DNA of 64,000 nt, from the NCBI GenBank assembly GCA_037318855.1, contig CP134874.1, positions 744,598-808,597 on the forward strand, given 5' to 3'. The notes beneath the pieces are model-generated. The model ran no database searches. It was not told the origin of the DNA and worked only from the letters and a program-made list of their open reading frames with translations. Position numbers and translations under genes: made by a program. This DNA is from Candidatus Sedimenticola sp. (ex Thyasira tokunagai). GTDB taxonomy: Bacteria > Pseudomonadota > Gammaproteobacteria > Chromatiales > Chromatiaceae. Of this stretch, positions 1 to 16,650 are shown one piece after another; the first letter of the stretch is position 1, and each line of letters begins with the position of its first letter.

Positions 1-1235
1 CCAGTTCATCACCCGTGCCTACCGGACTGCAGTGGCTGGCGGCAAACAGGTCGGACTGCTGTACCCGTTGATGGAGCGCAAGTATGGGCTGGGCGATACT
101 GTTGCCGATCCAAGCGGAGACGAAGATTGCAGCGAGAATCAGCAGGGCACCCATCGCCAGCAGGCGCAGTACGGCCCACCATACCGGTGCAAGATAGCTC
201 TCTTCTGGCAAGCCAACCTCCAGCTCGAGGCCGAGGGCCTGAAGCAGTGGTGTCTCCTCACTGCTGATCAACTGATGCTTGATATATTGGATCTGTGCAT
301 CGTAGTTATGACTGACGATCTCAACCCCCTGCTTGATCAACCTATAGTAGGCTTGGGGATTATGGGGACGGTTTTGTCTGACGATGGCCGCAAGATCAAA
401 TGCCGCAACCACGGCGCCCTGGGTGGTGTTGTAGTATTCGATGGGGGCGACGATGACCATCTGATTTTCCGGCTGCTGGATAAACAGGGTACGTTGCCCC
501 CTGGCCAAGGCGATGCGCAGCTCAGGTGACTGGTTGTAATCGGGTATATCAGCAATAGTCTGGAATACCGGGCGACCATCGAAATCAACCAGCACAAACG
601 ACACTACGTTACGACCGGCTGCAAAAGACTCCGTTAGTTTGGGTAGATAGGTCTGTCGCCCGTCAGGATCGACCGCTGATCGCCATGGAAGGCTGAAAGC
701 CGAGGCGATTAGTCCCCGATAGGCGTAGGCGCGGTTGTATGGCCGGAATTGCGACCGGCAGGGAGCGATGTAGGGCATACAAGGAGTGCATCCGAAACGC
801 CGTAGAGTCATTGCGGGAGTCATGATGGAGTAGTGCACAAGCAGCTTTGCTGCAATGTGCAATACGGAATCGTGACGTACGCAGGACGGTCGGGGCATAA
901 CGGCTGTCGCGTAGGCGAGTCGATTTTGGAGACTTGGATGTCCCAAAATCTTTCACGAGGTAGCGACACGCTTGAAGGCCGTTGATGATGAACGGGTTTT
1001 CCGTGAGCCGTTCGGTATTCTCAACCAGGTAGGCGATACGTTGCTCCATCAGCATCTGCGATGAACGTGTAGCATTTTTTAGTAGTTCATTCACCTGGTT
1101 GCTCAGTCCGCCACTGAAAAGCAGCGCGGCCAGAACTGTCACCAGCGTCATGGCGATGGCGACAAATCCCGCGACCTGCAACACCAGCCTTTTTTTCAGA
1201 CTGCGTTGCTGCTGATTGCTGTTGGAGGTGCTCAT
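1..1235 (-). pseudogene. Disrupted membrane sensor protein (probable sensor kinase), runs off the left edge
   Basis: Read on the minus strand. The 5' part (1235 down to about 975) encodes a cytoplasmic start, a membrane segment (about residues 20-42) and the beginning of an extracytoplasmic sensor domain ending in INGL. The frame is then lost. From about 673 down to 1 a second frame continues the same protein: VDPDGRQTYLPKL, a Cache-like sensor stretch, a second membrane segment (encoded near 175-90) and the start of a HAMP linker (GNSIAQPILALHQRV). About 300 bp of foreign-looking sequence (674-974) separates the halves. Its length is not a multiple of three, so the gene is frameshifted. The catalytic part lies outside the window. 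It starts 34 bp downstream of the fused binding-protein gene on the same strand, so it was probably the kinase that read that protein. The kinase assignment is by analogy with neighbours. Confidence 0.7.
674..974. repeat. ~300 bp insertion splitting the sensor gene
   Basis: Removing this stretch joins INGL to VDPDGRQ in one frame, which is how the boundaries were placed (give or take a few bases). It carries no convincing gene. I found no clear terminal inverted repeat or target duplication, so its class is unknown. It could be a small non-autonomous element or a recombined fragment. Confidence 0.45.
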
Positions 1236-1269: not shown

Positions 1270-3438
1270 TTATTCTCGGATGCCTAACGTTAGAGGAACG
1301 ATTGCGCCATCCTCGTCGAATTTTGCCATGCGGTAATCTTCCACTGTGAGGGCATCATGTTCTGTAGCTGTGAAGACAGGATCATATCTTTTTACCACAC
1401 CCTGATAGGGCGGCAGGTTTTCAAGGGCATTACGTACGGCCGCGCGCTCCGTAGTGCCGGCCTGCTCGATGGCCAGTGCCATGAGCTGAACGATGTCATA
1501 GGCGTGTGCGACGCCTGTGGGTGCCTTGATCTGGCGAGATGAATCGATGCCGTAGTGTGCGGCATAGCTTTTACCCAGATCCATGGCAGGTTTATTTGCA
1601 CTATCCAGTAGAGAGACAGTCTGGAAAAAGGAGAGATCTACTCTGCTTAGGGCGCTCTTGTTCATTTTCCAGAAGTCACCGCCGGTGATCCCCCAATGTG
1701 ATATGACGGAAAGTGGTGTGGCCTGCCGGGCCAGGGTATTGACGATATATTGGCCCTCCTGGGGCTTGGCAATCATGATAATGGAGTCTGCGCCTGCGGC
1801 GTTGATCCGATCAAGTAAGGGAGAGAAGTTTTTATCGCCCCGATTGAATTTTTCAATCTGAACGAAAGAGGCTCCTTTTTCCTTCAGGTTGCTGCTCATA
1901 TGACGCAGATTACCGCGTCCCCAAACGGAGTTTTCCAGCATGATGGCCGGTCGTTTGTATTCACTCAATACGTAATCGATCATAAAGGGTCCCGCCAGGC
2001 GGTCGTTTGCCGAGACCCTGAATATATAGTTGGGTTCGTGGGTGGTTTCGACCACTTCTGCAGTCGATGACCAGGATGCAAGAAACGGTATTCCGTTGGT
2101 TTGGAGCATCTCTTTTTCGGCCATGATAACGGGGCTGTGTTGGCCGCCGATGATTCCGACGACATCAGAATTGGCAACCAGCTTCGCGATGTTTCTCGTT
2201 CCCTGGCTCGGCATACCCCTGTGGTTGAGGGCAAGCAGGGCGAGTTCTCTGCCCAATACACCGCCTCGCTCGTTGATCTCATCCATTGCCAGTGTCGCCC
2301 CGCGCTTGATGGCCAGGCCGGAGATCTTGGCATCCAGGGAGAGATCAGCGTCGAGGCCAATGATAATGGGACGATTTGTACCGTCGGCAGCGAGGCGCTT
2401 CACCATCATCAGCTCTTCTGTCTTGGAGAGGACATCAGCACCGATAATCTCCTCGAACAGTGCGGGAATGTAGTCTGTTTTTGCCGCAAACCGGCGGTGG
2501 GCGCCTGTATCGAGAGTATGGATGCGAACCCCGGCCTGTCGAATGGTTTCTAGTAGTGTCCCCTCCCTACGGTGGGTCTCTTCGCGCTCCCAGGTGGTCA
2601 ACTCCCTGGCCGTTGAAATCAGGATCTCCTGTATATCGCCGGGCAGCTTATCAAATACTTTTTCGCTAATGGAAAAGACATAGCCCAGGTAGGCGTGGTT
2701 GCTGATGGTCAGGTCGGACTGAACTTCATGAAACCCCATGCTGACGATAGCGATCAGTGGATTCTCCTGACCGTCGACTACACCGTCAGCCAGTGCCTTG
2801 CGGGTGGCGTGAAAGTCGATGGGCACAGGGTGGGCGCCGAATGACTTGAACTGCTCCATGATGATGCGGCTTTTCATGGTACGAATCTTCAGACCGGCAA
2901 AATCTTCAGGGCTTTGCAGCGGTCTGTTACCGGTGAAGTGTTTGAAACCATTCTCCCAGAAGGTCACGCCGATCAATCCGATGTTCCTGAGCTTGTCCAG
3001 CAGCATTTGGCCGGGCTCACCGTCGAGCATCTCATACAGGTCTTCGGGGGTAGGGAAGTAGAAGGGCAGGTCAGCATATTGAATGGCGGGTACCGGCACG
3101 CTCATCTTGGCCGTCGGGGTGAGGATGATATCGAGCTCGCCGGCGCGGGCCATCTCGACCATTTGATGGTCATTGCCCAGTTGCTGCGCGGGATAGACTG
3201 TTACCCGGACCTTGCCCCTGGTCTTCTCTTTCACGGTTTCGGCGAAGCGTACTGAGGCCAAGTGAAGAGCGCTGGTGGCCGGGATGTTGTGGCCAAAGCG
3301 CAAATCGTAGATTGGCAGTGCGGCTTGCTGTGCCAGGTTTTGTGGCAATTTCTCGGTGGATTGCTCGGGACTCATCCAGGGTAGAAAAACAATTGCCAGC
3401 AGCACACCGAGGATGGCAATCCAGACTATTTTTTTCAT
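1270..3438 (-). CDS. Fusion of a TRAP-type (DctP) and a branched-chain-type (Peripla_BP_6) solute-binding protein
   Basis: 722 residues. The N-terminus (MKKIVWIAILGVLLAIVFLPW) is a signal peptide or anchor with no lipobox cysteine. Residues about 45-340 match DctP receptors of TRAP transporters, including the GLKIRTM strand with the carboxylate-contacting arginine and a DGQENP-type motif. Residues about 355-720 match the receptor-ligand-binding/LivJ type, with repeated Rossmann-like halves (GLDADLSLDAKISGLAIKRGA, VVGIIGGQHSPV). Two complete ligand-binding proteins are therefore joined in one periplasmic chain. No TRAP membrane subunit or ABC permease lies nearby. The next gene on the strand, 34 bp away, is a broken membrane sensor. 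I infer that it presents ligand to a kinase rather than feeding a transporter. Confidence 0.85.
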   Translation of the reverse strand: MKKIVWIAILGVLLAIVFLPWMSPEQSTEKLPQNLAQQAALPIYDLRFGHNIPATSALHLASVRFAETVKEKTRGKVRVTVYPAQQLGNDHQMVEMARAGELDIILTPTAKMSVPVPAIQYADLPFYFPTPEDLYEMLDGEPGQMLLDKLRNIGLIGVTFWENGFKHFTGNRPLQSPEDFAGLKIRTMKSRIIMEQFKSFGAHPVPIDFHATRKALADGVVDGQENPLIAIVSMGFHEVQSDLTISNHAYLGYVFSISEKVFDKLPGDIQEILISTARELTTWEREETHRREGTLLETIRQAGVRIHTLDTGAHRRFAAKTDYIPALFEEIIGADVLSKTEELMMVKRLAADGTNRPIIIGLDADLSLDAKISGLAIKRGATLAMDEINERGGVLGRELALLALNHRGMPSQGTRNIAKLVANSDVVGIIGGQHSPVIMAEKEMLQTNGIPFLASWSSTAEVVETTHEPNYIFRVSANDRLAGPFMIDYVLSEYKRPAIMLENSVWGRGNLRHMSSNLKEKGASFVQIEKFNRGDKNFSPLLDRINAAGADSIIMIAKPQEGQYIVNTLARQATPLSVISHWGITGGDFWKMNKSALSRVDLSFFQTVSLLDSANKPAMDLGKSYAAHYGIDSSRQIKAPTGVAHAYDIVQLMALAIEQAGTTERAAVRNALENLPPYQGVVKRYDPVFTATEHDALTVEDYRMAKFDEDGAIVPLTLGIRE

Positions 3439-3924
3439 TAATCAGCCCTCGAATCTATTCTGGTCGCTGCGTCTTCGATATGGCCTGCACTATGCCTGTA
3501 ATACGGTCATATCCTATAGGGGGAGCTCCCTCTAGGAAGTCTAGTACATCAGCGCTGCATCGTGTCTCATGCATCTGAATCTATGGATAATGCAAGCTGG
3601 CAGGATATATATTCCTGGCAAATCACCTGCTTTCTCTAATTTCCTAATCCATCTAAGTGGCTATGCACAATAGCCCTGAAGCACTATCTTCTTTGAAAAA
3701 GTGCATCTGTAGGAGCGAATTTATTCGCGATCAGGCGACCGGGCATGTTCTTCGCGAACAAGTTCGCTCCTACACCCGGTTCCCGGATTATTGTGCACAG
3801 CCATTTTCACCTATTCCCTCACAAAACCCCTGTATGAGAACTATGCTCAGATAAGGAGGCTTTCCCTCAGGATCGTTGTGGCTCGCTCGTTACGGGGGGT
3901 TAGTAGGCTACGCATGGGCTGCTT
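3439..3924. other. Intergenic region between divergent genes, with a REP/MITE-like element
   Basis: This is the divergent promoter region of the fused binding protein (minus) and the NMT1-like protein (plus). It contains the inverted-repeat element at 3655-3808 and a short GGGGGAGCTCCC palindrome near 3520. No gene was seen. Confidence 0.6.
3655..3808. repeat. MITE-like element with internal REP palindromes (copy 1)
   Basis: The outer arms AAGTGGCTATGCACAATA (3655-3672) and the complement of TATTGTGCACAGCCATTTT (right end) form a terminal inverted repeat. Inside are two opposed REP-like units, TGTAGGAGCGAATTTATTCG and, in inverse orientation, one ending TTCGCTCCTACA. Related units occur near 32.4 kb and 54.2 kb. 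Confidence 0.7.
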
Positions 3925-5013
3925 GTGGTCAGTAGCAACATTTTCCAGGATATGTGTTCAATGATGTCATCCAAGGTTACCCGCCGCTCTCTGCTGAAGC
4001 GTCACCACTACTGGCTGATCATTCTCGTTGTGGTCGTTGGCGTTGCGTTTATTCTGCTACCTCAGAGCACACAGCATAAGGAGAGGCCGCTATCCAGTGA
4101 GAATAGAATCAATATTCGTATAGGGCTTGCCATGCAGCCCACCAGCGCCCTGGCTATTATCGCGGCCAAGCAGGGTTACTTTGAAGCGGAGAACATAGAG
4201 GCGGTGGTGTCCGAGTTCCCCAGTGGTAAACGCGCTCTGCGGGATGGACTCTTCCAGGATAGGGTTGATGTGGCGGTCTCTGCTGATGTGCCGATCACCA
4301 TGGCTGCCCTGGAGAAAAGGTCATTCAGGATCATTGCCGCCACTTTCAACGCCGGCAATGTAAACCGGGTTATCGCCCGGACAGACCTCGGTATTCAAAC
4401 TCCGGCAGATCTGGTGGGAAAGCGTGTGGCGACCCAACGCGCTTCTGCTGTGCACTATTTCCTCGAGCTCTTCATGGGTGAACACGCTCTTCCCCATGAG
4501 CAGGTCTCCCTCCGCTACATGAAAGCGGAGAAACTGCCCCAGGCCTTGGCAGAGGGAAGTATCGATGCCTTCTCCATGCGTGAGCCCTATATCAGCCAAG
4601 CCAAAGCGTTGCTGGGTGACAAGGCAGTGGTGTTCTCCGTACCCGGCCTCTACCGGCAGATTGATATGGTGCTGATCACAGAAAAGATGCTCGTTGCCAA
4701 CCCGGGTGTAGCAGCCCGGTTGCTACGTGCATTGAACAAGGCAGAACAATTCGTACATCAGCAACCTGATGATGCGGTTGCCATGGTCGCCCAGCGCTTG
4801 GGCGTGGAGAAGGATAAGATCCATGCCCTCTGGCCGACCCTGAAATTGCGTGTATCCCTGGAGCAGTTTCATCTGCTGTTGTTGGAGAGTGAAGCGCGCT
4901 GGGCGCTCAGAAACGGGCTTACCCAGGCAACTGAGATGCCTGATTTCATGGAGTATATAGATTTTACCGGGCTTCAAGAGGTGAATCCTGAAGCAATAAC
5001 CATCTTTCGGTGA
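3925..5013 (+). CDS. Membrane-anchored NMT1/SsuA-like substrate-binding protein
   Basis: 362 residues from the GTG at 3925. ATG 3961 or 3964 (MMSSKVTRR) is a likelier start because the membrane segment follows soon after. One hydrophobic segment (about residues 29-46 of the long form) anchors the protein. The rest is an NMT1/THI5-like periplasmic fold: IGLAMQPTSALAIIAAKQGYF, a DVAVSADVP hinge, then DLVGKRVATQRAS and AFSMREPYISQ. These domains usually bind taurine, sulfonates, nitrate or pyrimidine precursors; the ligand here cannot be told. No ABC permease or ATPase is adjacent. The next gene, 36 bp on, is a sensor kinase, so a sensory co-receptor role is inferred. Confidence 0.8.
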   Translation: MVSSNIFQDMCSMMSSKVTRRSLLKRHHYWLIILVVVVGVAFILLPQSTQHKERPLSSENRINIRIGLAMQPTSALAIIAAKQGYFEAENIEAVVSEFPSGKRALRDGLFQDRVDVAVSADVPITMAALEKRSFRIIAATFNAGNVNRVIARTDLGIQTPADLVGKRVATQRASAVHYFLELFMGEHALPHEQVSLRYMKAEKLPQALAEGSIDAFSMREPYISQAKALLGDKAVVFSVPGLYRQIDMVLITEKMLVANPGVAARLLRALNKAEQFVHQQPDDAVAMVAQRLGVEKDKIHALWPTLKLRVSLEQFHLLLLESEARWALRNGLTQATEMPDFMEYIDFTGLQEVNPEAITIFR

Positions 5014-5049
5014 GATTGATCTATTCATGATAATCAGCAAGCCAATATT

Positions 5050-7749
5050 ATGAAAATCAGGACCAGGGTTTGGATGATTATTATGGTCCCGGTCCTATTC
5101 GGGATCAGCGTCACGGCTCTCCAGCAGTGGATGGCCACGCGGGTCGATGCTGCTCTGGTCTATAACAGGCTGATCACTGAGATTACTCAGAACACTTCAT
5201 CCCTCTATCATCTTGCGGCAGAATTTGTTCGCTACCCCCGGGAGAGCAGGGCAAGAAAACAGTGGCTGCTCAAACATGAGGAGCTGGCCGGCCTGATGTC
5301 CCATGCGGATACCGGCCAACAAGGGACGATTGAGCTCCTTGATAGGCTACAACAATCCCATGCCTCCTTATTGGAACTACAGCAGCGGTTTTTTATTGCC
5401 GAAAAAGCAACCCTGCATTCATCCGATCTAACGGAGCAGCAGCAGCGTATTGCCGATCAAATCTTCATGCTGACCCAGAACATGATTTCGGACGCATTGG
5501 CACTGGGCAGTTTTAGCGCTGATCAGGTGACGGCTATCCGTGACCTTCAGGATAGACTGATTATTCTCTTTACTCTGGTTCTTATCCTGCTGTTGAGTTT
5601 TTTCGGCATTATCATGGGCAGGCAGATCATCCGGCCCCTGGATAAGCTGAAGGAGGGCACTGAAGTTATCGGTGATGGCGCTCTTGACTACAGGGTGGGC
5701 CATATATCCAACGATGAGCTGGGCGACTTGGGCTTTGCCTTTGATCGGATGGCGGGACGTCTGCAGGCTACCCTGGCTTCTCGTGACCAGCTCAATACAG
5801 AAGTCGAAGAGAGAAGGCGAAATGAAGAGGCGCTACAGGCGAGTCGTAAGCGTCTGATGCACGCCGAGCATATCGCCCAGCTCGGAAGCTGGGATTGGGA
5901 TATCGAGAGCGACAAGATCATCTGCTCGGAAGAGATGTTTATCGCTTTTGGTATTCCGCCTCAAACCCAAGATGTTACTTTTGATCAAATGTTGAGCTTC
6001 GTGCACCCGGAAGAGCAGGAAGCAGTTGAAGAGTGGATGAGAGAGGCGGCGAACAGGACCGGCGGAACAGGTCGTCATCAATTTCACATGGTGCGCCCCG
6101 ACGGTACGGTACGGGTGATGCAGGTCGAGGGGGATGTGAGCGTTGATCCATCCACGGGTACCACGCACATGATGGGCACACTGCACGATATAACCGAGCG
6201 CTGGGAGATGGAGGATGCCCTGCGCGAAAGTGAGGCAAAGTACAGAAACCTGCTGGTGAACATCCCCCAGAAGGTATTCTACAAAGACCGGAACTCCATC
6301 TACATGGCAGTCAATCCCAGTTATGCAGCAGGTTTTGGCCGGAAGCCCGAAGAGTTTGTGGGCAAGGATGACTTTGTCTTCCATGACCCTGAATTTGCTG
6401 AGAGGTATCGAAGAGATGATCAGAAAATTATGCAGGGGGGGTGTGTTGTCGAAATGGATCAAGGTTATATCCTGGATGGAACGCAACATACCGTGCATAT
6501 CGTCAAGGTGCCGGTGCGAGGTGAATCGGGCAAGGTGATCGGCATTTTGGGGGTGTTTTGGGATATCTCGGAACGCAAACAGATGGAGTCTGAACTCAAT
6601 GAAACCCGCCAATATCTGCACAATGTGGTCGATTCCATGCCCTCCGTGCTTATTGGCCTGGATACCGACGGCCGTGTTACCCACTGGAATCCAGAGGCTG
6701 CTGTATTGAGTGCTATTCCCTCCTCTCAGGCCATAGGGCAGCCGATGGAACAGCTGTTGCCCCAGTTCGCAGCGCAGATGGCAGCGATCAAACAAGCGAT
6801 CACCCAGAATAGCCCTCTCAAACTGCTGCGTGTGCTCAGGCAGGTTGGAAATGAAAAGAGATATCTGGATCTTGTGCTCTACCCCCTGACGGGTGAAGGA
6901 CGGCAGGGTGCGGTGCTGCGTATCGATGATGTGACAGAGCGGGTGCGTATGGAGTCTACCATGGTGCAGACCGAGAAGATGATGTCGGTGGGTGGTTTGG
7001 CTGCCGGTATGGCTCATGAGCTGAACAATCCCCTGGGTGGTGTACTGCAGGGCTTGCAGAACGTCCAGCGCAGGTTCTCTCCGGAACTGGATAAAAACCT
7101 GGAGCTGGCCCGGGAGTTGGGGCTGGATCTGGAGAGGATGCAGGAGTACATGGAAGGACGTCAGATACGGCATTTTCTGGACGGTATCAGCGAAGCGGCC
7201 GGGCGCGCCGGCGACATCGTCAACAACATGCTGCAGTTCAGCCGCAAGGCAGAGATGGTGATGCAGTCCGAGGAGATCGTGCCACTGATCGAACGCACCT
7301 TGGAGCTGGCTTCGGTGGATTACGATCTAAAGAAGAAGTACGATTTTCGCAATATTGTGATCGAGCGTGACTATGATCCCGATGCCCCCCCTGTCTCCTG
7401 CATCGCCTCGGAAATTCAGCAAGTGTTGCTGAATCTGTTACGTAATGCGGCCCAAGCCATAAGCCTCCAGGAAGATCGTACCGATCAGGCCAGGATTGTA
7501 CTGCGGACAGCCCTCAGGGAAGAGATGGTTCTGATCGAGGTGGAGGACAACGGCCCCGGCATGGATGAATCGGCCTGTCGGCGTGTATTCGAACCCTTCT
7601 TCACCACGCGCCCGCCGGGACAGGGTACCGGGCTGGGATTGTCTGTCTCCTATTTTATCGTCAACGATGAACACAATGGGAGGTTGAGTGTCCGTTCGAT
7701 ACCGGGTAAGGGCACAATATTTTCTATTCTTCTACCTGCGGGAGGTTGA
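5050..7749 (+). CDS. Hybrid-less sensor histidine kinase: TM-sensor-TM-HAMP-PAS-PAS-PAS-HisKA-HATPase
   Basis: 899 residues. Membrane segments lie at about 7-24 and 173-196, bracketing a helical periplasmic sensor. A HAMP linker (about 197-250) and coiled coil follow, then three PAS domains (about 280-385, 395-510, 520-630). The H-box is GGLAAGMAHELNNPLGG, with the phosphoacceptor His at residue 656. The ATPase shows an N box (LLNLLRNAAQA), G1 box (DNGPGMDE) and G2 box ([10 protein letters not shown]). There is no receiver domain, so phosphate must pass to a separate receiver. It follows the NMT1-like gene by 36 bp and probably senses its ligand-bound state. The H-box and about 80 residues after it are nearly identical to those of three other kinases in this island, which suggests local duplication with swapping of the input domains. 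Confidence 0.92.
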   Translation: MKIRTRVWMIIMVPVLFGISVTALQQWMATRVDAALVYNRLITEITQNTSSLYHLAAEFVRYPRESRARKQWLLKHEELAGLMSHADTGQQGTIELLDRLQQSHASLLELQQRFFIAEKATLHSSDLTEQQQRIADQIFMLTQNMISDALALGSFSADQVTAIRDLQDRLIILFTLVLILLLSFFGIIMGRQIIRPLDKLKEGTEVIGDGALDYRVGHISNDELGDLGFAFDRMAGRLQATLASRDQLNTEVEERRRNEEALQASRKRLMHAEHIAQLGSWDWDIESDKIICSEEMFIAFGIPPQTQDVTFDQMLSFVHPEEQEAVEEWMREAANRTGGTGRHQFHMVRPDGTVRVMQVEGDVSVDPSTGTTHMMGTLHDITERWEMEDALRESEAKYRNLLVNIPQKVFYKDRNSIYMAVNPSYAAGFGRKPEEFVGKDDFVFHDPEFAERYRRDDQKIMQGGCVVEMDQGYILDGTQHTVHIVKVPVRGESGKVIGILGVFWDISERKQMESELNETRQYLHNVVDSMPSVLIGLDTDGRVTHWNPEAAVLSAIPSSQAIGQPMEQLLPQFAAQMAAIKQAITQNSPLKLLRVLRQVGNEKRYLDLVLYPLTGEGRQGAVLRIDDVTERVRMESTMVQTEKMMSVGGLAAGMAHELNNPLGGVLQGLQNVQRRFSPELDKNLELARELGLDLERMQEYMEGRQIRHFLDGISEAAGRAGDIVNNMLQFSRKAEMVMQSEEIVPLIERTLELASVDYDLKKKYDFRNIVIERDYDPDAPPVSCIASEIQQVLLNLLRNAAQAISLQEDRTDQARIVLRTALREEMVLIEVEDNGPGMDESACRRVFEPFFTTRPPGQGTGLGLSVSYFIVNDEHNGRLSVRSIPGKGTIFSILLPAGG

Positions 7750-8146
7750 TGAATCGGGACATTTGGGAATAGCGGATATTCATAAGCTATCATTAAGGTC
7801 GAGGAGTTCAATGAATGAGATCGAAGCTCTATCTTCTGGTGGGGGCGCTACCCAGTTGGACTGGATCGATTAGCCTAGGGCCTGTTAACGCTAATTGAAT
7901 GATGCCTGCTGAGGCCATTTTTTTGTTCAGCAAGGCAGAAGGAGTGCAGTGTATTGAACATACATAAACGACTGATAACGCCGCTGAGCGGAAAAATGGC
8001 CTCAGCCCTTCGGATTGCCCCTGAAAAAGCGCCACTCATCGTTGCCCGTTGCTTATTTGGAGTGACCAAACTACGCGCCTCACGCCTTGATGGGCATTTT
8101 TTCAGGGGCAACAGACACGACTCAATTAGTGTTAACAGGCCCTAGT
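7750..8146. other. Intergenic region holding a MITE and a possible short leader reading frame
   Basis: A 20-codon frame with a good GAGGAG ribosome site (7811-7873, MNEIEALSSGGG) precedes the repeat. It is in the same phase as the kinase that follows but is closed by TAG before the element. It may be a leader peptide or chance. The remainder is the repeat at 7875-8145. Confidence 0.4.
7875..8145. repeat. 271 bp MITE-like element next to a start codon
   Basis: The ends are CTAG followed by the terminal inverted repeat GGCCTGTTAACRCTAATTGA (left G, right A at R). CTAG at both ends may be a 4 bp target duplication or part of the repeat. The right end stops one base before the ATG of the next gene, so the element supplies its upstream region. 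Confidence 0.75.
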
Positions 8147-9925
8147 ATGCCCAAGAGACTCACACTGCTGGTCTGTGACTACTTCCACAGGGAGGTGGTG
8201 CGTGTTGTCGAGGAGGAGAAGTTCGGCAACGTGGACGTAGTTGCGTACACCGCCGATTGCGACCATCCGGCTGCTGTTGCCAAGACCCTGAGTCACTCCC
8301 TTGCTGAGCTGGGCGAGGGAGCAGATTCAGTGTGTGTTTTGGGTGGGCACTGCCTCTGTGAGCTTGACCAGAATATCTTATCCGAGGATGTTCGTTTTCA
8401 CCCTATGGAACAGTGCTTTGAACTGTTTCTTGGACCAGAGCAGCTTGACTGTTACCTGAAGCAGGGGGTCCATATAGTGACGCCTGGGATGCTCAATAAT
8501 TGGCAGGCACAGTATCAGAAGTGGGGCTTTGACGATGCTGACGCCAAGGCATTTTTCCTGGAGTCCACCAGTCGCCTGCTTCTGTTGGATACCGGGATCG
8601 ATCCGGCTGTGGTTGAAAAGCTGGAAGCGTTTGCCGATAAGGCCGGATTACTCTGGGAACGGGTCAATGTGGGACTCGATTCTCTACGGCTGTTTCTCAG
8701 GGCGCTGGTTGCAGAGTGGCAGAGAGGAAAACAACAAAAAGAGCAAGATGGAGTGCTCCAGGAGAAAGAGCGGCAGCTGGCGGACTACGCCATGGTCAAT
8801 GACCTGATCAGCGGTATTACTGCACTAACCGACGAGGTCTCAGTGGTGGAGCGGGTGTTGGAGCTTTTTACTATGTTCTGTGGTCCGGGACAGGTGATCT
8901 ACCTGCCGCTATCGGATGAAGGTCCGGGAGAGATCGTTTTTACACCGCCATTTAGTACGGTTGACGATGCAGAGACTAAACGGCTTGCAGGTTTTTCGGC
9001 GCGTTATCAACTGGACGACCAGGGTGGTGGGTTTACCCTGGTTATCGAACGTCAGAGCGTGCGCTATGGTGTCGTATCTGTAAAAGATATCACCTTTCCC
9101 CAGTACCGCCAGCACTACCTCAATCTCTCTCTCAGTATCACCCCGGTTATCGCCCTGGCACTGAGCAATGCCCGTACCTACCAGAAACAGGTGGCTGCTG
9201 AGGAGCGGGTCAAGGGTTTGAATCAGCAGTTAAATCAGAAACTGATCACTGTCAATGCCCTTAATAAGGAGCTGGAGGCATTCACCTATTCGGTTTCTCA
9301 TGATCTAAGAGCACCTCTGCGCAGCCTTGATGGATTCAGCCGGATGCTGGTGCGGGATTATCCCGACAGGTTGGACGACCGTGGTCAGCACTTATTGGAA
9401 CGGGTGATGGTAAATGCCCAGCGTATGGGGCAGTTGATCGATGACATGCTGCGGCTGTCGCGCCTGACCCGGGGAGAGTTGACACTGGCGCAGGTGGACC
9501 TGAGTCAGATCGCTTCCGAGATGGCTGCCGATCTGCAACAGACGGCGGAAGAGCGGCAGGTTGAGTTTGTTATCGCCGATGGGTGCATAGCCCAATGTGA
9601 TGCCGGGATGCTAACAATAGTTCTGGAGAACCTGCTGGGTAACGCCTTTAAGTATACCGGCAAGAGAGCACAGGCGATGATTGAGTTCGGTACAACAGAC
9701 GTTGATGGCGAAGCTGCCTTCTTTGTCAGGGACAACGGCGCAGGTTTCGACATGGCCTATGCGGACAAGCTGTTCAGGCCTTTTCAGCGGCTGCACACTG
9801 ATGAAGAGTTTCAGGGGACCGGCATTGGGTTGGCCACGGTACAGCGCATCATTCAACGCCACGGCGGTAAATTGTGGGGTGAGGGTAAGCTGGGCGAGGG
9901 TGCTGCTTTCTACTTCACCCTGTAA
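8147..9925 (+). CDS. DUF1638-like domain fused to a phytochrome-type histidine kinase
   Basis: 592 residues from ATG 8147. A longer in-frame TTG start at 8087 lies inside the MITE and is unlikely to be ancestral. Residues about 1-200 resemble the DUF1638 family: an alternating alpha/beta stretch with LLVCDYFHREV, VCVLGGHCLCEL and MEQCFELFLGPEQL plus several cysteines. Residues about 225-340 are a GAF-like region. A coiled coil leads to an H-box SVSHDLRAPLRSLDGF (His 385) and an ATPase with NLLGNAFKYT, DNGAGFD and GTGIGLATV. There are no membrane segments, so it is cytoplasmic. This kinase half is of the bacteriophytochrome/Rcp type, different from the other kinases here. The next gene is the matching Rcp1-like receiver. 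The DUF1638 assignment is pattern recognition and needs a profile search. Confidence 0.75.
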   Translation: MPKRLTLLVCDYFHREVVRVVEEEKFGNVDVVAYTADCDHPAAVAKTLSHSLAELGEGADSVCVLGGHCLCELDQNILSEDVRFHPMEQCFELFLGPEQLDCYLKQGVHIVTPGMLNNWQAQYQKWGFDDADAKAFFLESTSRLLLLDTGIDPAVVEKLEAFADKAGLLWERVNVGLDSLRLFLRALVAEWQRGKQQKEQDGVLQEKERQLADYAMVNDLISGITALTDEVSVVERVLELFTMFCGPGQVIYLPLSDEGPGEIVFTPPFSTVDDAETKRLAGFSARYQLDDQGGGFTLVIERQSVRYGVVSVKDITFPQYRQHYLNLSLSITPVIALALSNARTYQKQVAAEERVKGLNQQLNQKLITVNALNKELEAFTYSVSHDLRAPLRSLDGFSRMLVRDYPDRLDDRGQHLLERVMVNAQRMGQLIDDMLRLSRLTRGELTLAQVDLSQIASEMAADLQQTAEERQVEFVIADGCIAQCDAGMLTIVLENLLGNAFKYTGKRAQAMIEFGTTDVDGEAAFFVRDNGAGFDMAYADKLFRPFQRLHTDEEFQGTGIGLATVQRIIQRHGGKLWGEGKLGEGAAFYFTL

Positions 9926-9943
9926 CACCTGGTAAGGGTAAAT

Positions 9944-10399
9944 ATGACACAAAAGGTAAAGAAAATCGTCCTGCTGGTCGAAGATAACCCTGATGACCTT
10001 GAGTTGACACTCGATGCATTCAGGCAGCATGAGATGGATGATCAGATTCAGGTGGTACGCGACGGACAGGAAGCGCTCGACTGCCTCTTTGGCGAGGGTG
10101 ATTATGAGCAGCAAGGGGCATTCTGTCCAAAGCTGACGTTGCTGGATCTTAATCTGCCAAAACTGAGCGGTCTTCAGGTACTTAAGCGGTTGCGTCAGGA
10201 CCAAAGAACAAGAGTGTTGCCAGTAGTTGTTTTGACCTCTTCCTCTCAGGAGGAGGACCGATTGATCAGCTATAATTTAGGAGCCAACGGTTATGTGCGT
10301 AAACCGGTCAGCTACGAGGCGTTTATGGGGGCGGTGAAGGCCTTGAGGCTTTATTGGTTGGGTCTGAATGAACTACCGGGTGAAGGGATTGGAGAGTAA
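9944..10399 (+). CDS. Rcp1-like single-domain response regulator
   Basis: 151 residues, one receiver domain. The acidic pair is EDNPDD, the phosphoacceptor is Asp68 in LLDLNLPKLSG, the conserved Thr/Ser lies in VVVLTSSSQEED, and Lys is in YVRKPVSYEAF. The insertion after the second strand and the NLPKLSG and long C-terminal helix signature are those of Rcp1-type partners of phytochrome-like kinases. It starts 18 bp after the DUF1638-kinase gene and overlaps the next gene by one base (10399), so it is translationally coupled to both. It has no output domain and acts as a phosphate shuttle or by protein contact. Confidence 0.88.
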   Translation: MTQKVKKIVLLVEDNPDDLELTLDAFRQHEMDDQIQVVRDGQEALDCLFGEGDYEQQGAFCPKLTLLDLNLPKLSGLQVLKRLRQDQRTRVLPVVVLTSSSQEEDRLISYNLGANGYVRKPVSYEAFMGAVKALRLYWLGLNELPGEGIGE

Positions 10400-12000
10400 T
10401 GGGCAGCCGACTCAACATTCTATTGGTCGAAGACTCGGAAGACGAGGCGTTACTACTGGAGGATGCCCTTCTCCAAGGTGGTTTTGCACCGATAATAGAG
10501 CGGGTGGAGACTGAGGCTGAGATGCGCTCGGCCCTGGAAGGTCAAGCGTGGGATCTTCTGCTTGTCGATTATGTATTGCCTCACTTCAGCGCGCCTGAGG
10601 CACTAGCCGTTTACCACTCACTGCTTCTGGAGATCCCCTTTATTGTGGTTTCAGGCCAAGTGAACGAGGAGAGTGCAGTCGGCATCATGCGTAGCGGCGC
10701 CCACGACTATATTTCCAAACAGAAGTTGGCACGTCTGATACCAGCTATAGAACGGGAGTTGGCTGAAGCCGAAAGCCGCTGGCAGCGACGACAGGCGGAA
10801 GACGAACTGGATCGACTGCGTCACTACCTCCAGAATGTCATCGACTCCATGCCGTCAGTATTGGTGGGTGTGGATGAAGAGGGTGTCATCACCCACTGGA
10901 ACCGAGAGGCGGAACAGTACAGTGGTGTAGGCAGGGAGCAGGCGGCGGGGAGGGGCCTGGAGCAGGTGATACCGGTACTCTCGGAACAGATGGAGCGGGT
11001 GCGTACGGCTATCCGTGAAAATCAGGCCCAGTCGGTAGAGCGCCATATTCACGAGGTTGAAGGCGAGCACCGCTATGCAGACATCACGATTTTCCCGCTG
11101 GTAGCCAATGCTGCCGTCGGCGCTGTCATACGTTTCGATGACGTGACCGAAAGAGTGCGTATGGAAGAGATGATGATGCAGACCGAGAAGATGATGTCGG
11201 TGGGTGGTCTGGCCGCAGGCATGGCCCACGAGATCAACAACCCTTTGGGCGGTATGTTGCAGGGTATGCAGAATGTACGCAGGCGCCTCAGTCCGGAACT
11301 CCTAAAGAACCGTGAAGCTGCCAAGTCACTGGGGCTCGATCTAGACCTGGTGGACAAATATCTTCAGCAGCGGGAGGTCTACCATCTCATGGAGGGCATC
11401 GCTGAGGCCGGTCGGCGTGCCAGCGGTATTGTTGAAAATATGTTGAGTTTCAGCCGCAAGACCGAGCCGGGTTTCTCTGCCGTTGAGATGACATCGCTGG
11501 CAGATACGACGCTTGAGCTGGCCTCAGTGGACTATGATCTGAAGAAGCGATACGATTTTCGAAGGATTGAGGTGGTACGTGACTATGAGGCCGCTCTGCC
11601 GGCGGTGAGATGTGTGGTAACCGAGATTCAGCAGGTGCTACTCAACCTGCTGCGCAATGCAGCTCAAGCACTGTTCGCGAGGGTGGATAAGGAGGAAGTG
11701 GCGAGAATTCGGTTGGGTCTCCACAGAGAGGGCGGCATGGTGCGGATCGAGGTGGAGGACAACGGTGTGGGAATGACCGAGACGGCTCGGAACCGGGCCT
11801 TTGAGCCCTTTTTTACCACCCGTCCGCCAGGGGAAGGTACAGGGTTGGGACTCTCGGTCTCCTACTTCATTGTCTGCGATGAGCATGGAGGTGAAATGTT
11901 TGTTGATTCCATGCCTGATAAGGGTGCCAAGTTTATCATCAAGCTGCCGTTGTGGCAGGAGAGTGATTTGCGGGGCGAGGATCGATGGCCGGAACGATAA
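10399..12000 (+). CDS. Receiver-PAS-histidine kinase
   Basis: 533 residues, soluble. The N-terminal receiver (about 5-122, Asp57 in LLLVDYVLPHF) is followed by a linker helix, a PAS domain (about 140-250) and a HisKA/HATPase core. The H-box is GGLAAGMAHEINNPLGG (His 277), with DNGVGMTE and [10 protein letters not shown] in the ATPase. The kinase core is paralogous to that of the 5050-7749 protein. With its receiver at the N-terminus it can accept phosphate or signal from an upstream kinase, such as the Rcp-type pair it overlaps, and control its own kinase. The stop is one base upstream of the next start. Confidence 0.9.
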   Translation: MGSRLNILLVEDSEDEALLLEDALLQGGFAPIIERVETEAEMRSALEGQAWDLLLVDYVLPHFSAPEALAVYHSLLLEIPFIVVSGQVNEESAVGIMRSGAHDYISKQKLARLIPAIERELAEAESRWQRRQAEDELDRLRHYLQNVIDSMPSVLVGVDEEGVITHWNREAEQYSGVGREQAAGRGLEQVIPVLSEQMERVRTAIRENQAQSVERHIHEVEGEHRYADITIFPLVANAAVGAVIRFDDVTERVRMEEMMMQTEKMMSVGGLAAGMAHEINNPLGGMLQGMQNVRRRLSPELLKNREAAKSLGLDLDLVDKYLQQREVYHLMEGIAEAGRRASGIVENMLSFSRKTEPGFSAVEMTSLADTTLELASVDYDLKKRYDFRRIEVVRDYEAALPAVRCVVTEIQQVLLNLLRNAAQALFARVDKEEVARIRLGLHREGGMVRIEVEDNGVGMTETARNRAFEPFFTTRPPGEGTGLGLSVSYFIVCDEHGGEMFVDSMPDKGAKFIIKLPLWQESDLRGEDRWPER

Positions 12001-12001
12001 G

Positions 12002-14185
12002 ATGATGCGCCACTTGACCAGTATTTTTGTGCTGCTGCTTCTCGCCTGCCTGTATCCCAATATGCAGGCCTTTGGGCAGCAGGCAGAGCGCCTGGTGGTC
12101 GCCATGCCGGGGGATTTCCCACCCCACTACCATGTGGACGAGAAACAGAAGCCGGGCGGCTTCGCCGTGGAGCTTCTGGATGAGGTCGCTCAAATAGCCG
12201 GGGTTCAACTGGAGTACCGTATATTCGACGGTTGGGCAGCTACCATGGAGGCGCTTAAAAACGGTGAGGCTGATCTTATACCCAATTTGGGAATTACTCC
12301 TCAGCGGGCGGAGTACGCCTCATTTACCGATCCGGTGGAGACCTTCGCTATCGGCCTCTTCGTGCGCGAAACAAACCAGCAGATCACTGGACTGAAAGAC
12401 CTTGCCGGCAAGCGTGCCGCCGGTGTGGTGCAGAACGTGGGCCTCAGGCTGCTCAAGGCCGCAGAGAATATCGAGGTCGTCACTTACGATGCCCATGAGC
12501 ATGCGCTGTTCGCCCTGTTGGCGGGTGAAGTGGAGGCCCTCGCATTTCCCATACCTGTGGCCTGGAAGAGCGCGAGAGGGGCGGGTGTGGACGGGCTGAT
12601 CAAGCAGGTCGGGTCGCCACTGAAAGAGATCAAGCGGGCGATTGCTGTACGTAAGGGTGATGATGCACTGCTCGCCGGCATGAATGCCGCCGTAAAGCAG
12701 TTTGTCGGCAGCACAACCTATGCAGAGATCTACAGCCGCTGGTTCGGTACTCCTGAACCCTACTGGACGGTACAGCGCGTTCTGTGGGTGGGTGGCGGTG
12801 GCGGTGGCTTGCTGCTGTTTGTGGTCGTCATCGCCATGACCTACTGGCGCTACCGTGCCACGGTGGTGCTCTACCGGGATCTGAAGGCAAGCATGGAGGA
12901 TAGGGACAAGGCTCAGCAGGCACTGCAGCAGTTGAATGTAGATCTGGAGTCGCGGGTCGACCAGCGCACCGTGGAGCTGCAACAGGAGATCCATGAGCGC
13001 AAGCAGACTGAGGAGCTTCTGAGAAGCAGTGAGAAAAGTCTGGAAAAGGCCCAGCGAATCGCCAATCTGGGTAACTGGGAGTGGGATATACCGAGCGGCG
13101 GCCTCACTTGGTCTGACGAAATCTACCGTATTTTCGGTCTCCAGCCCGGAGAGTTTGCCGCCTCCTATGAGGCGTTTCTGGAGACGATCCATCCGGAAGA
13201 CCGGGATAAAGTTATCGAGGCTGTCGATAGAGCAGTGAAGGGTATTGCACCCTACTTGATTGAGCACAGAGTGATCCGCCCTGATGGTGAAGTGCGGTAT
13301 GTTCAAGAGCAGGGGGAGGTGAGTAGGGGTGACTCCGGTAAACCTCTGCGTATGCTTGGTGTGGTGCATGATGTCACCGAGCGTAAACGTATGGAGTCCA
13401 CCATGGTGCAGACTGAGAAGATGATGTCGGTGGGCGGCTTGGCTGCGGGAATGGCTCACGAACTGAACAATCCACTCGGAGGTATTCTGCAGGGGCTGCA
13501 AAATATCAAACGCAGACTCTCTCCTGAGCTGGATAAAAATCTCGAGGTGGCCTCGCAACTGGGCCTGGATCTGGAACTGGTTCAGAACTACACGGCGCAA
13601 CGCCAGATCGATAGTTTTATGACAGGTATGGCCGAGGCGGGTGAGCGTGCCAGCGCGATCGTGCGTAATATGCTGCAGTTCAGCCGCAGGTCGGAGATGG
13701 TGAAGAGTGAAGAGGATATCGCGCAACTGATAGAGCAGACTCTGGAACTGGCGGCGGTGGACTACAGCCTCAAAAAACGTTTCGATTTCAGGGATATTGA
13801 GATTGTCAGAGAGTTTGAGTCCGGGGGGGTGGCAGTGAAGTGTATTGCCTCCGAGATCCAGCAGGTGCTGCTGAATTTGCTGCGCAATGCGGCACAGTCG
13901 TTCGGTGAAAAGCCTAAAGAGGCTACTCCCAGGATCACTCTGCGTGTCCGCTTGGAGAGAGAGATGTTGCTCCTTGAGGTGGAGGATAATGGTCCGGGTA
14001 TGGATGAGGCGACTCGCAAAAGGATTTTTGAACCCTTCTTTACTACCCGGCCACCGGGTGAGGGGACAGGGCTTGGACTGTCGGTCTCCTACTTTATTAT
14101 CTGTGATGAGCATGGTGGCCTGATGGAAGTGGAGTCTGCTCCGGGAGAGGGCAGCAGATTCATTATTGGCCTACCCTTAAGCTAA
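12002..14185 (+). CDS. Sensor kinase with fused bac_3 solute-binding sensor (SBP-TM-PAS-HisKA-HATPase)
   Basis: 727 residues from ATG 12002 (or 12005), chosen because a signal peptide (MMRHLTSIFVLLLLACLYP) follows and the previous gene ends at 12000. Residues about 30-255 are a bac_3-type periplasmic binding domain (AMPGDFPPHYHVDEKQKPGG, PNLGITPQRAEYASFTDPV). A membrane segment (about 262-285), coiled coil and PAS domain (about 345-455) follow. The H-box is GGLAAGMAHELNNPLGG (His 486), and the ATPase carries DNGPGMDE and [10 protein letters not shown]. This is the EvgS/BvgS-like way of sensing small polar ligands directly, but with no attached receiver or Hpt domain. It is the third kinase of the local paralogous set. 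Confidence 0.92.
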   Translation: MMRHLTSIFVLLLLACLYPNMQAFGQQAERLVVAMPGDFPPHYHVDEKQKPGGFAVELLDEVAQIAGVQLEYRIFDGWAATMEALKNGEADLIPNLGITPQRAEYASFTDPVETFAIGLFVRETNQQITGLKDLAGKRAAGVVQNVGLRLLKAAENIEVVTYDAHEHALFALLAGEVEALAFPIPVAWKSARGAGVDGLIKQVGSPLKEIKRAIAVRKGDDALLAGMNAAVKQFVGSTTYAEIYSRWFGTPEPYWTVQRVLWVGGGGGGLLLFVVVIAMTYWRYRATVVLYRDLKASMEDRDKAQQALQQLNVDLESRVDQRTVELQQEIHERKQTEELLRSSEKSLEKAQRIANLGNWEWDIPSGGLTWSDEIYRIFGLQPGEFAASYEAFLETIHPEDRDKVIEAVDRAVKGIAPYLIEHRVIRPDGEVRYVQEQGEVSRGDSGKPLRMLGVVHDVTERKRMESTMVQTEKMMSVGGLAAGMAHELNNPLGGILQGLQNIKRRLSPELDKNLEVASQLGLDLELVQNYTAQRQIDSFMTGMAEAGERASAIVRNMLQFSRRSEMVKSEEDIAQLIEQTLELAAVDYSLKKRFDFRDIEIVREFESGGVAVKCIASEIQQVLLNLLRNAAQSFGEKPKEATPRITLRVRLEREMLLLEVEDNGPGMDEATRKRIFEPFFTTRPPGEGTGLGLSVSYFIICDEHGGLMEVESAPGEGSRFIIGLPLS

Positions 14186-14261
14186 GGATCTTCTGATTAA
14201 GAGGTTAACCCAAGCATGCGTATAGGAAGAGCATTGTATAAACAGAGAAGAGGTTATCCCT

Positions 14262-14630
14262 ATGTCCCTAATACTCGTGGTTGATGACGAGGAATCTGTA
14301 CTGCTTAACCTCGTGGCCTATGTTGAGGATGAGGGCTATGAAGTGGTTTCCGCCTCCAATGGTGAGAAGGCGCTTGAACTGATTGCTGAGCGCAAGCCTG
14401 ATCTTGGCATCATGGATATGCGCCTGCCGGGAATGGACGGCAATGAATTGATAGTGAAGGCCCATCAAGCCCATCCACAAATGAAATTTATTGTGCACAC
14501 AGGCTCGGCGGATTATGCAGTACCGGCTGAGCTGGAACGGATCGGCTTGGGAGAAGGAAGTGTATTCAAAAAGCCAGTATCTGATATGGCTGTTTTCACC
14601 GAGGCCATTAATCGTTTGCTGGCTGAGTGA
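14262..14630 (+). CDS. Stand-alone response-regulator receiver
   Basis: 122 residues, a single CheY-like receiver: acidic pocket DDEE, phosphoacceptor Asp52 in IMDMRLPGMDG, Thr in VHTGSADY and Lys in VFKKPVSDM. An AAGAGG ribosome site lies 8 bases upstream of ATG 14262. It sits between the bac_3-fused kinase and the HD-GYP regulator. Like the receiver at 9944 it has no output domain, so it is a candidate phosphate carrier or kinase modulator for the receiver-less kinases of the island. Confidence 0.9.
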   Translation: MSLILVVDDEESVLLNLVAYVEDEGYEVVSASNGEKALELIAERKPDLGIMDMRLPGMDGNELIVKAHQAHPQMKFIVHTGSADYAVPAELERIGLGEGSVFKKPVSDMAVFTEAINRLLAE

Positions 14631-14665
14631 TGTCACCGGTAATTTGACAAGAAGAGAGAGGTTCG

Positions 14666-16492
14666 ATGGGTGAATCGAATAACAGCACCATACTGGTAGT
14701 GGATGATGATCCGGTACTGCGCGAAAGTGTAGCCGCCTACCTTGAAGACAGTGATTTTGAGGTGGTTCAGTCGACCAATGGCCGTGACGGGCTGGAGGTG
14801 TTTACCTCCCAGTTGCCGGACCTCGTACTGCTGGATCTACGTATGCCGGTGATGGATGGTATAGACGCCCTGCCCATGATGGTGGAAGCGAGACCGGATA
14901 CGCCTGTGATCATTGTTTCCGGTATGGGTACTCTGGATGATGCCATCGAGGCACTGCGCTTGGGAGCTTGGGATTTCATCACCAAACCGGTGCACGATTT
15001 GGCTTTTCTCGAACACTCGGTAAGGCGGGCGCTGGAGCGTGCAGAACTGATCAAGGAGAATAGACGTTACAGTGAGCACCTTGAGGATGAGGTGAACCTG
15101 CGAACCGAGGAACTGGCCAACCGAAACGATGAACTGGAGCAGAGCCGGCGGGTGATTCAACAGGCTGCACTCGATTGGGATGATGCTTTTAACGCGGTGC
15201 AGGATCCTCTCTTTATTCATGACGGTCAGCTACGCATCGTCAACGCCAATCGTGCCTATTTCGAACGTGCCGGCCTGACTCACGAGGAGGCAGTCGGCAG
15301 GATTTACTGGGAGCTGTTCCCAAAACTGGATGGGCCGATACCCGGGTGTAAAGAGGCGTTGGTAACAAAAAAGGCTGCGAAATCCAGCGAAATCACGGTG
15401 AGCTCGGGGGAGGTCTTTCTCTCACGCTCTTATACCATTCTCAATCCGGACAGCAGCTACAAGCATTCGCTTCACATTCTGCAGGACATCACCGAGCGCA
15501 AGTGGGCCCAGGAGGCGCTACGCGCCAGCGAGGAGCGTTACCGCCTGATCTTCGAACAGGGTGGTGATTCTATTTTGCTCATTGATCCAAGGAGTGGCGA
15601 TATACTCGATTTCAATGAGCAGGCCTACAAAACCCTGGGCTATACCAAGGTGGAGTTCGCCAGCCTGAAGGTTGCCGATTTTGAAGAAAATGAGCTACAG
15701 GAAGAGGTGCAACATCATTTCGATCTGATATTGCAGACGGGTGGAGACGTTTTTGTTACAAGGCACAGAACCAAGGGGGGTGATCTGCGTGATGTTCAGG
15801 TTACTGCCAGAAAGATCATGCTGGGTGGCAACCCTTATATCCAGGCGATCTTTACCGACTTTACCGAGCGTAAGCGGGCTGAAGAGGAGCGCCGTAAGGG
15901 TATTGAACGACTGCACGGAGTTCTGGTCAAGACCATTCAGGCTATCGCTCTCACCGTTGAAAAGCGTGACCCGTACACCGCCGGTCACCAAGAGCGGGTT
16001 GCAGAACTGGCTGCAGCAATAGCTGGAGAAATGGGACTGGAAGATGAAAGGGTGGAAGGCATACGCATGGGTGCCATGATTCATGATATCGGCAAGGTCT
16101 ATGTGCCGGGTGAGTTTCTCAATCGCCCTGGTAAGCTCACTGAGGATGAGTTCTCCATTATCAAGAGTCACGCCCAGGTGGGCTACGATATCGTCAAGGA
16201 CATCGATTTTTCCTGGCCGGTGCCCCTGATGATTTTGCAACACCACGAGCGTTTGGATGGATCCGGCTATCCCAACGGATTGAAAGGGGATGAGATTATC
16301 CTGGAAGCACGGATCATGGCCGTAGCTGATGTGGTCGAGGCAATCTCTTCCCATCGCCCCTACCGTCCCGGCCTGGGTATGGATGTGGCACTGGGTGAGA
16401 TTACGGATTTCCGTGGTTCACATTATGCCCCCGATGTAGTGGATGCCTGCCTGCGCCTATTCAATGAGAAGGGCTATGTGATTGAGCATTGA
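14666..16492 (+). CDS. Receiver-PAS-PAS-HD-GYP c-di-GMP phosphodiesterase
   Basis: 608 residues. The receiver (about 7-125, Asp57 in LLDLRMPVMDG) is followed by a coiled coil, two PAS domains (about 170-275 and 285-405) and an HD-GYP domain (about 415-600). The HD-GYP metal and substrate motifs are complete: HQERV, MIHDIGKV and HHERLDGSGYPNGLKGDEI, then ADVVEAISSHRPYR. It should therefore hydrolyse cyclic di-GMP when phosphorylated. It is the only recognisable output domain in the first 20 kb. An AGAGAGAGG ribosome site is 7 bases before the ATG. It lies 35 bp after the small receiver and probably shares its transcript. Confidence 0.93.
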   Translation: MGESNNSTILVVDDDPVLRESVAAYLEDSDFEVVQSTNGRDGLEVFTSQLPDLVLLDLRMPVMDGIDALPMMVEARPDTPVIIVSGMGTLDDAIEALRLGAWDFITKPVHDLAFLEHSVRRALERAELIKENRRYSEHLEDEVNLRTEELANRNDELEQSRRVIQQAALDWDDAFNAVQDPLFIHDGQLRIVNANRAYFERAGLTHEEAVGRIYWELFPKLDGPIPGCKEALVTKKAAKSSEITVSSGEVFLSRSYTILNPDSSYKHSLHILQDITERKWAQEALRASEERYRLIFEQGGDSILLIDPRSGDILDFNEQAYKTLGYTKVEFASLKVADFEENELQEEVQHHFDLILQTGGDVFVTRHRTKGGDLRDVQVTARKIMLGGNPYIQAIFTDFTERKRAEEERRKGIERLHGVLVKTIQAIALTVEKRDPYTAGHQERVAELAAAIAGEMGLEDERVEGIRMGAMIHDIGKVYVPGEFLNRPGKLTEDEFSIIKSHAQVGYDIVKDIDFSWPVPLMILQHHERLDGSGYPNGLKGDEIILEARIMAVADVVEAISSHRPYRPGLGMDVALGEITDFRGSHYAPDVVDACLRLFNEKGYVIEH

Positions 16493-16500
16493 TCAGAAAC

Positions 16501-16650
16501 TTTTGTAACTATTCAGCTCACCCCTGTGCGTCTCCATGACTACGTTAAAAAATCATCATTTACACTTGTAAACTCATATTTTTCGCCTTGTCCTGGAGAC
16601 GCACAGGGGCAATCTGAACAGTTACAACATTATGCTGAATAGTTACAAAC
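16501..16650. repeat. 150 bp long inverted-repeat element
   Basis: The outer arms are TTTTGTAACTATTCAGC (16501-16517) and GCTGAATAGTTACAAA (16634-16649). The inner arms CCCCTGTGCGTCTCCA (16521-16536) and TGGAGACGCACAGGGG (16594-16609) are exactly complementary. It lies between convergent genes and can fold into one long hairpin. With no T-run it is a MITE-like repeat rather than a standard terminator, though it may still block read-through. Confidence 0.75.

Follow-up and report, generated by a model that had tools for sequence, protein, structure and literature searches.

In the LuxP-LuxQ system of Vibrio, a periplasmic type I binding protein is paired with a Cache-type sensor kinase, and in NspS-MbaA a solute-binding protein (SBP) controls a GGDEF-EAL protein. 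The DctB protein of Bacillus subtilis is of the DctP type. Within the DctB-DctS-DctA system, it is the membrane co-receptor for C4-dicarboxylates and works with a sensor kinase, according to excerpts of PMC6978683. PMC11113362 reports that in 10 of the 11 SBP-kinase couples characterised the two genes are neighbours or nearly so, and that at least 13 families contain SBPs that activate receptors, diguanylate cyclases and phosphodiesterases being among these receptors; the same source warns that adjacency of SBP and kinase genes is not always a functional link, as AgtS and AruS showed no binding. Judged by titles and abstract openings, the openly licensed literature yielded no description of a fusion between DctP and Peripla_BP_6, and the words "fused", "fusion" and "tandem" are absent from a paper on SBP repertoires as far as its main text goes (PMC9602780). 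The pair of fused receptor and sensor analysed here is a new, widespread form of SBP-dependent sensing and does not constitute a new category.

The receptor gene occupies positions 1270-3438 (minus strand) of the window, that is, the whole stretch of 64,000 nucleotides that was analysed, and is an unbroken frame of 722 codons with an ATG start. As the original prediction held, two binding proteins of unrelated families lie in this one chain, both far above the Pfam cut-offs: a DctP (TRAP solute-binding) domain at residues 48-321 (positions 2476-3297, minus strand; PF03480, 266.7 bits against a cut-off of 23.4, 3e-79) and a Peripla_BP_6 (BP6; type I binding protein) domain at residues 358-711 (positions 1306-2367, minus strand; PF13458, 139.5 bits against 31.7, 3e-40). 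The NCBIfam models TRAP_S1 and TIGR00787 also score above their own cut-offs on the 722-aa protein, and the Liv/Urt models score below theirs. AlphaFold2, given 69 sequences (our own and those of 68 of the 80 scan loci described below), folded the whole chain with a mean pLDDT of 94.2 and a pTM of 0.90; only six residues separate the last helix of the DctP module (334-351) from the first strand of the BP6 module (358-364), and the model suggests that the two modules are held in a defined mutual arrangement. In Foldseek, the first half matches TRAP SBPs (4ovs, target-normalised TM 0.84) and the second half matches the type I binding protein 4q6w (TM 0.87), a Bordetella protein with a hydroxybenzoate-type ligand in the structure.

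The chain was originally said to carry a single signal peptide. There is indeed one hydrophobic N-terminal helix (residues 2-21, positions 3376-3435, minus strand), recognised from the AlphaFold2 model and the hydropathy of relatives, 72/80 of which have a stretch of 19 residues with a mean hydropathy above 1.6; by eye, this end of the sequence looks more like an uncleaved membrane anchor. Tethering of the receptor is suggested because the helix follows basic residues and mostly comes without a lipobox, a simple pattern for which, missing some cases, matched 3/80 relatives.

In the DctP half, R186 of the TRAP carboxylate motif, which we take to be the equivalent of SiaP R147, is kept in 69/69 sequences and N226 in 67/69. 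In the BP6 half, F473, R474, D479 and G507 are kept in all 69, W456 and Q606 in 68, W506 in 67, H581 in 64 and W582 in 59. Several conserved residues directly follow predicted strands in the AlphaFold2 model, positions that may line a binding cleft. W456, W506, W582 and Q606 are all kept in 12/12 aligned relatives that have a BP6 domain only; the two Liv-type SBPs encoded in the same genome, just two proteins compared through a distant alignment, differ from the sensor-linked BP6 domains at 456 (a gap in one of them), 474, 506, 508, 581 and 582, and do not share the set W456, W506-G507-R508 and H581-W582 as a whole. The sequences thus point to a candidate sensor-dedicated Peripla_BP_6 subfamily comprising fused and BP6-only proteins. 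Given these conserved residue sets, both halves look like live putative binding sites, the second one sensor-specific; the amino-acid-type ligand first envisaged for it is doubtful, since the set is not that of the two Liv-type proteins.

In one scan of about 85,000 species genomes, 258 of the 316 stretches returned encode relatives. The 80 loci retained from it are the top matches to the fused query, not a random sample. The fusion is present in 80/80 of these best loci, each time as a single frame that crosses the junction of the halves, with contig ends cutting three of the frames at query residues 652-690. The 80 loci belong to gamma- and betaproteobacteria, Magnetococcales, Campylobacterota, Nitrospirota and desulfobacteria, and further to Nitrospinota, SAR324 and one Planctomycetota MAG. 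Type strains are among the carriers, and the isolates include Parazoarcus communis DSM 12120, Amphritea atlantica DSM 18887, Dechloromonas denitrificans ATCC BAA-841 and Desulfobacter vibrioformis DSM 8776. Counted by hand from the rows listed, in three genome draws that overlap one another, full-length fusions made up 3 of 92 relatives, 8 of 369 in the class-level draw (E 1e-45) and 24 of 398 in the phylum-level draw (E 1e-90; 26 genomes matched, two of them partly). An assembly join of two genes, which had been named as the finding that would overturn the fusion, is ruled out as far as these searches go, because the same fusion recurs in many independent genomes of several phyla, type strains included. 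In a tree of the BP6 domain with 90 rows (76 fused, 12 BP6-only and 2 transport proteins; five of the 80 scan loci and the BP6-only L029, L066 and L070 were left out), one branch has all fused domains on the same side of it; the support of that branch is 19, so a single origin of the fusion is not established. A 2119-aa open frame in one genome (G463), taken for a single-chain fusion of receptor and kinase, proved to be false, with two separate genes.

In 76/80 loci the receptor is followed on the same strand by a frame of 150 aa or longer, at a spacing of -65 to +108 bases; the two genes overlap in 44 loci, and in 33 of these the overlap is exactly 4 bases. A profile of one dCache-type periplasmic domain, made from the first 310 residues of the sensor in 38 of the 80 loci, matches 77/80, including one locus (L151) that has no downstream frame in the gene-order count. 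The other three (L155, L168 and L176) stop at contig ends and have no sequence past the receptor. Adjacency of an SBP gene and a sensor gene, the mark of an SBP-dependent sensor system, is therefore found in 77/80 loci. Among the 76 downstream proteins scanned, 55 contain HisKA and 18 contain GGDEF and EAL; dCache_1 (PF02743) is matched at E 0.001 or better by 46/76, with the single-protein scores that were printed lying below the 45-bit cut-off (30 bits, for example). A fold search with the modelled sensor part (pLDDT 89.7) leads to dCache domains such as those in DctB, KinD and PctA, amino-acid chemoreceptors among them; the sensor profile matched no PDB sequence below E 0.17. Only 14/80 loci have a same-strand gene for a REC-HD-GYP protein at a distance of up to 1.5 kb, and we therefore do not claim c-di-GMP as the common output.

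How does this arrangement compare with the described systems? As in LuxP-LuxQ, a binding protein is encoded beside a sensor with two PAS-like periplasmic lobes, and the output is a hybrid kinase; LuxP, however, has just one binding domain, from another family, whereas here two unrelated folds are joined and anchored, and neither LuxQ nor LuxP appears among the sequence and structure matches listed. Like NspS-MbaA, the 18 loci with GGDEF-EAL partners would place a c-di-GMP enzyme under SBP control, but NspS is a single SBP of another family and most partners here are histidine kinases. DctB-DctS-DctA includes the transporter DctA and lacks a BP6 half. With the TRAP SBPs (DctP, SiaP; 4ovs, 7bbr, 3b50) the receptor shares its fold and the conserved arginine of the carboxylate site, while it differ​s from them in having no adjacent DctQ/DctM, in being fused to a second SBP and in being apparently anchored. 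With the Liv-family type I SBPs (4mpt, 4q6w, LivJ) it shares the fold, but the conserved residue set is another one and no Liv permease is adjacent.

Because the receptor gene stands directly beside a membrane-sensor gene in species after species, the 722-aa protein is most likely a two-pocket antenna for the neighbouring sensor rather than a component of a nutrient importer. We propose the following mechanism. First, the DctP module would bind a carboxylate-type solute, and a second solute would be bound by the sensor-specific Peripla_BP_6 module. Second, the liganded, closed receptor would dock on the sensor whose gene follows directly downstream, at its dCache-type periplasmic domain, and docking would alter the output of the sensor: in most relatives a phosphorelay through a histidine kinase, in others c-di-GMP turnover by GGDEF-EAL. 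Two-ligand binding, docking and conformational signalling are what we infer here; taken as a whole, a membrane-tethered co-receptor of two modules that docks on the downstream dCache-type sensor and changes its output is an explanation in which we have good confidence. A broader reading is offered tentatively, at slightly less than an even chance: such receptors may be widespread two-input devices, coincidence or either-or detectors for one dCache sensor with interchangeable outputs, in which the DctP module was added to an older BP6-sensor pair.

In the genome at hand, the adjacent membrane sensor of the original prediction does exist as a gene beside the receptor; it is split by a repeat. 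The first piece (positions 975-1235, minus strand) encodes TM1 together with the first part of the dCache-type domain (profile positions 3-86). A repeat of 301 bp follows (positions 674-974), with no target duplication seen. The second piece (positions 1-673, minus strand) resumes at profile position 86, in a different frame, reaches position 310 and continues past the window as far as C1:742961; PAS, HisKA and HATPase_c domains lie in the remainder. The repeat is strongly structured and has 44 matches in the genome, 30 of which are almost full length and at least 90% identical. A self-splicing element that restores the sensor was considered and rejected; the only Rfam match is sub-threshold and to an unrelated family, and the flanks of ten copies have no consensus by eye, so we treat the element as a plain mobile repeat. 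A search of the genome revealed neither a second full-length copy of the sensor domain nor an intact paralogue. If the assembly is correct at the repeat, the receptor is therefore orphaned here, and with its sensor gene broken, the system is probably decaying or silent in this genome. The dual receptor for an adjacent sensor, as first described, agrees with the conserved gene order of many species and probably lacks a working pair in its own genome.

The receptor gene may be a relic here, partnerless and drifting, and we give this about the same weight as its opposite. The split of the sensor domain at profile position 86 into different frames and the lack of a second full-length copy in the genome speak for it. 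On the other side, the receptor frame is intact with all checked conserved residues present, the insertion looks recent, the copies of the repeat being nearly identical, and an internal start could still allow translation of the downstream piece of the sensor. Decay would in any case bear on this genome only and not on the family.

It is also possible, though we hold it rather unlikely, that only one half of the receptor binds a ligand while the other serves for docking or as a spacer, with DctP docking and BP6 sensing or the reverse. Indeed, across 75 loci the divergence of the sensor domain is tracked more closely by the DctP half (Spearman 0.82) than by the BP6 half (0.48), the pairwise identities of the two halves correlating at 0.38, and the DctP half is retained where BP6 is missing or truncated. 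Within clades, however, the correlations of the DctP and BP6 halves with the sensor are about equal in the betaproteobacteria (0.95 and 0.96) and the Magnetococcales (0.88 and 0.88), higher for BP6 in the gamma-campylo clade (0.59 and 0.67) and higher for DctP in the delta-nitrospira clade (0.83 and 0.61). Since the values even out in this way, much of the gap lies between clades, and the idea that DctP is the docking half, once drawn from co-divergence, is weakened and not pressed. Two further points stand against a single ligand-binding half: residues just after the cleft strands are kept in both halves, and the same sensor family is paired with BP6-only relatives.

The single-domain relatives bear on the same question. 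A sensor domain lies nearby in 13/15 BP6-only relatives from two draws, and a DctP-only relative (G029, L048) adjoins a sensor of the same family. In another relative (G501; L196, positions 6924-8612), the DctP half is intact and BP6 is reduced to its first part, with most of the core lost; its gene adjoins a sensor gene, recognised by eye from its N-terminus, and a response regulator gene. Each half thus occurs alone in sensor pairs, as the BP6-only relatives, G029 and G501 have sensors, and because DctP-only, BP6-only and fused proteins share one sensor family, a modular periplasmic co-receptor is the parsimonious reading. BP6-only relatives that adjoin sensors of this family were noted at L050, L051, L052, L053 and L091-L096.

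That the fusion serves an unlinked TRAP or branched-chain ABC transporter is very improbable, even though both domains come from SBP families of transporters and a TRAP locus and two liv loci occur elsewhere in the genome: these already have their own SBPs, both Liv-type SBPs lying in liv operons and one DctP paralogue lying with DctQM, and the N-terminus of the receptor looks anchored. Searches with tblastn for DctQ, DctM, LivH and LivM found none within about 8 kb at any of the 80 fusion loci, 77 of which have the sensor, and LivF/G-like ATPases were matched at 3/80; as controls, five TRAP and two liv loci were all detected. Standalone DctP loci behave in the opposite way, with DctQ/M in the short flanks of 30/32 and the sensor domain in 0/32; these 32 are the DctP-only loci of two draws, excluding the sensor-linked L018 and not counting the genome's own paralogues L002 and L003. 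In our genome, open reading frames and the permease search revealed no transporter gene for the receptor in the surrounding 18.6 kb. The statement that no transporter is nearby is borne out at this locus and at the 80 relatives, and gene order (0/80 against 30/32) rules out a known transporter part as far as the searches go. A free SBP for a distant TRAP or ABC permease keeps a small probability on gene order alone. A second cluster of SBP and sensor genes was seen in the same genome (L182, G000:C1:2390000-2404000, positions 6623-8678); it has a DctP-like gene, a second binding-protein-like gene, and kinase and response-regulator-like genes, their kinds assigned by eye, and no match to a TRAP permease.

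The signals of most sensor kinases are unknown. The putative co-receptor and its sensor offer a handle on this problem, with two identifiable pockets beside a likely sensor and with culturable strains, and the integration of signals by one periplasmic protein would become testable with purified parts. They would also set apart a class of DctP and BP6 domains dedicated to sensors, which would pass for transporter parts if profile searches were the only guide.

Other features of the window lie around the receptor gene. A REP-like inverted repeat (positions 3708-3774; 23-nt arms, 91% complementary) separates the divergent receptor gene from the next operon. Positions 3925-19478 hold a dense sensor array, in which an NMT1-type SBP adjoins a PAS kinase and further kinases and response regulators follow, together with a kinase that has its own SBP_bac_3 domain, a REC-PAS-HD-GYP-like protein and a dCache-type kinase. 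An element at positions 7875-8145 has terminal inverted repeats of 37 nt (84% complementary), inner hairpins and related copies elsewhere in the genome; it is MITE-like and sits just ahead of a histidine kinase gene. The histidine kinase at positions 8087-9925 has an N-terminal DUF1638 domain, an unusual combination.
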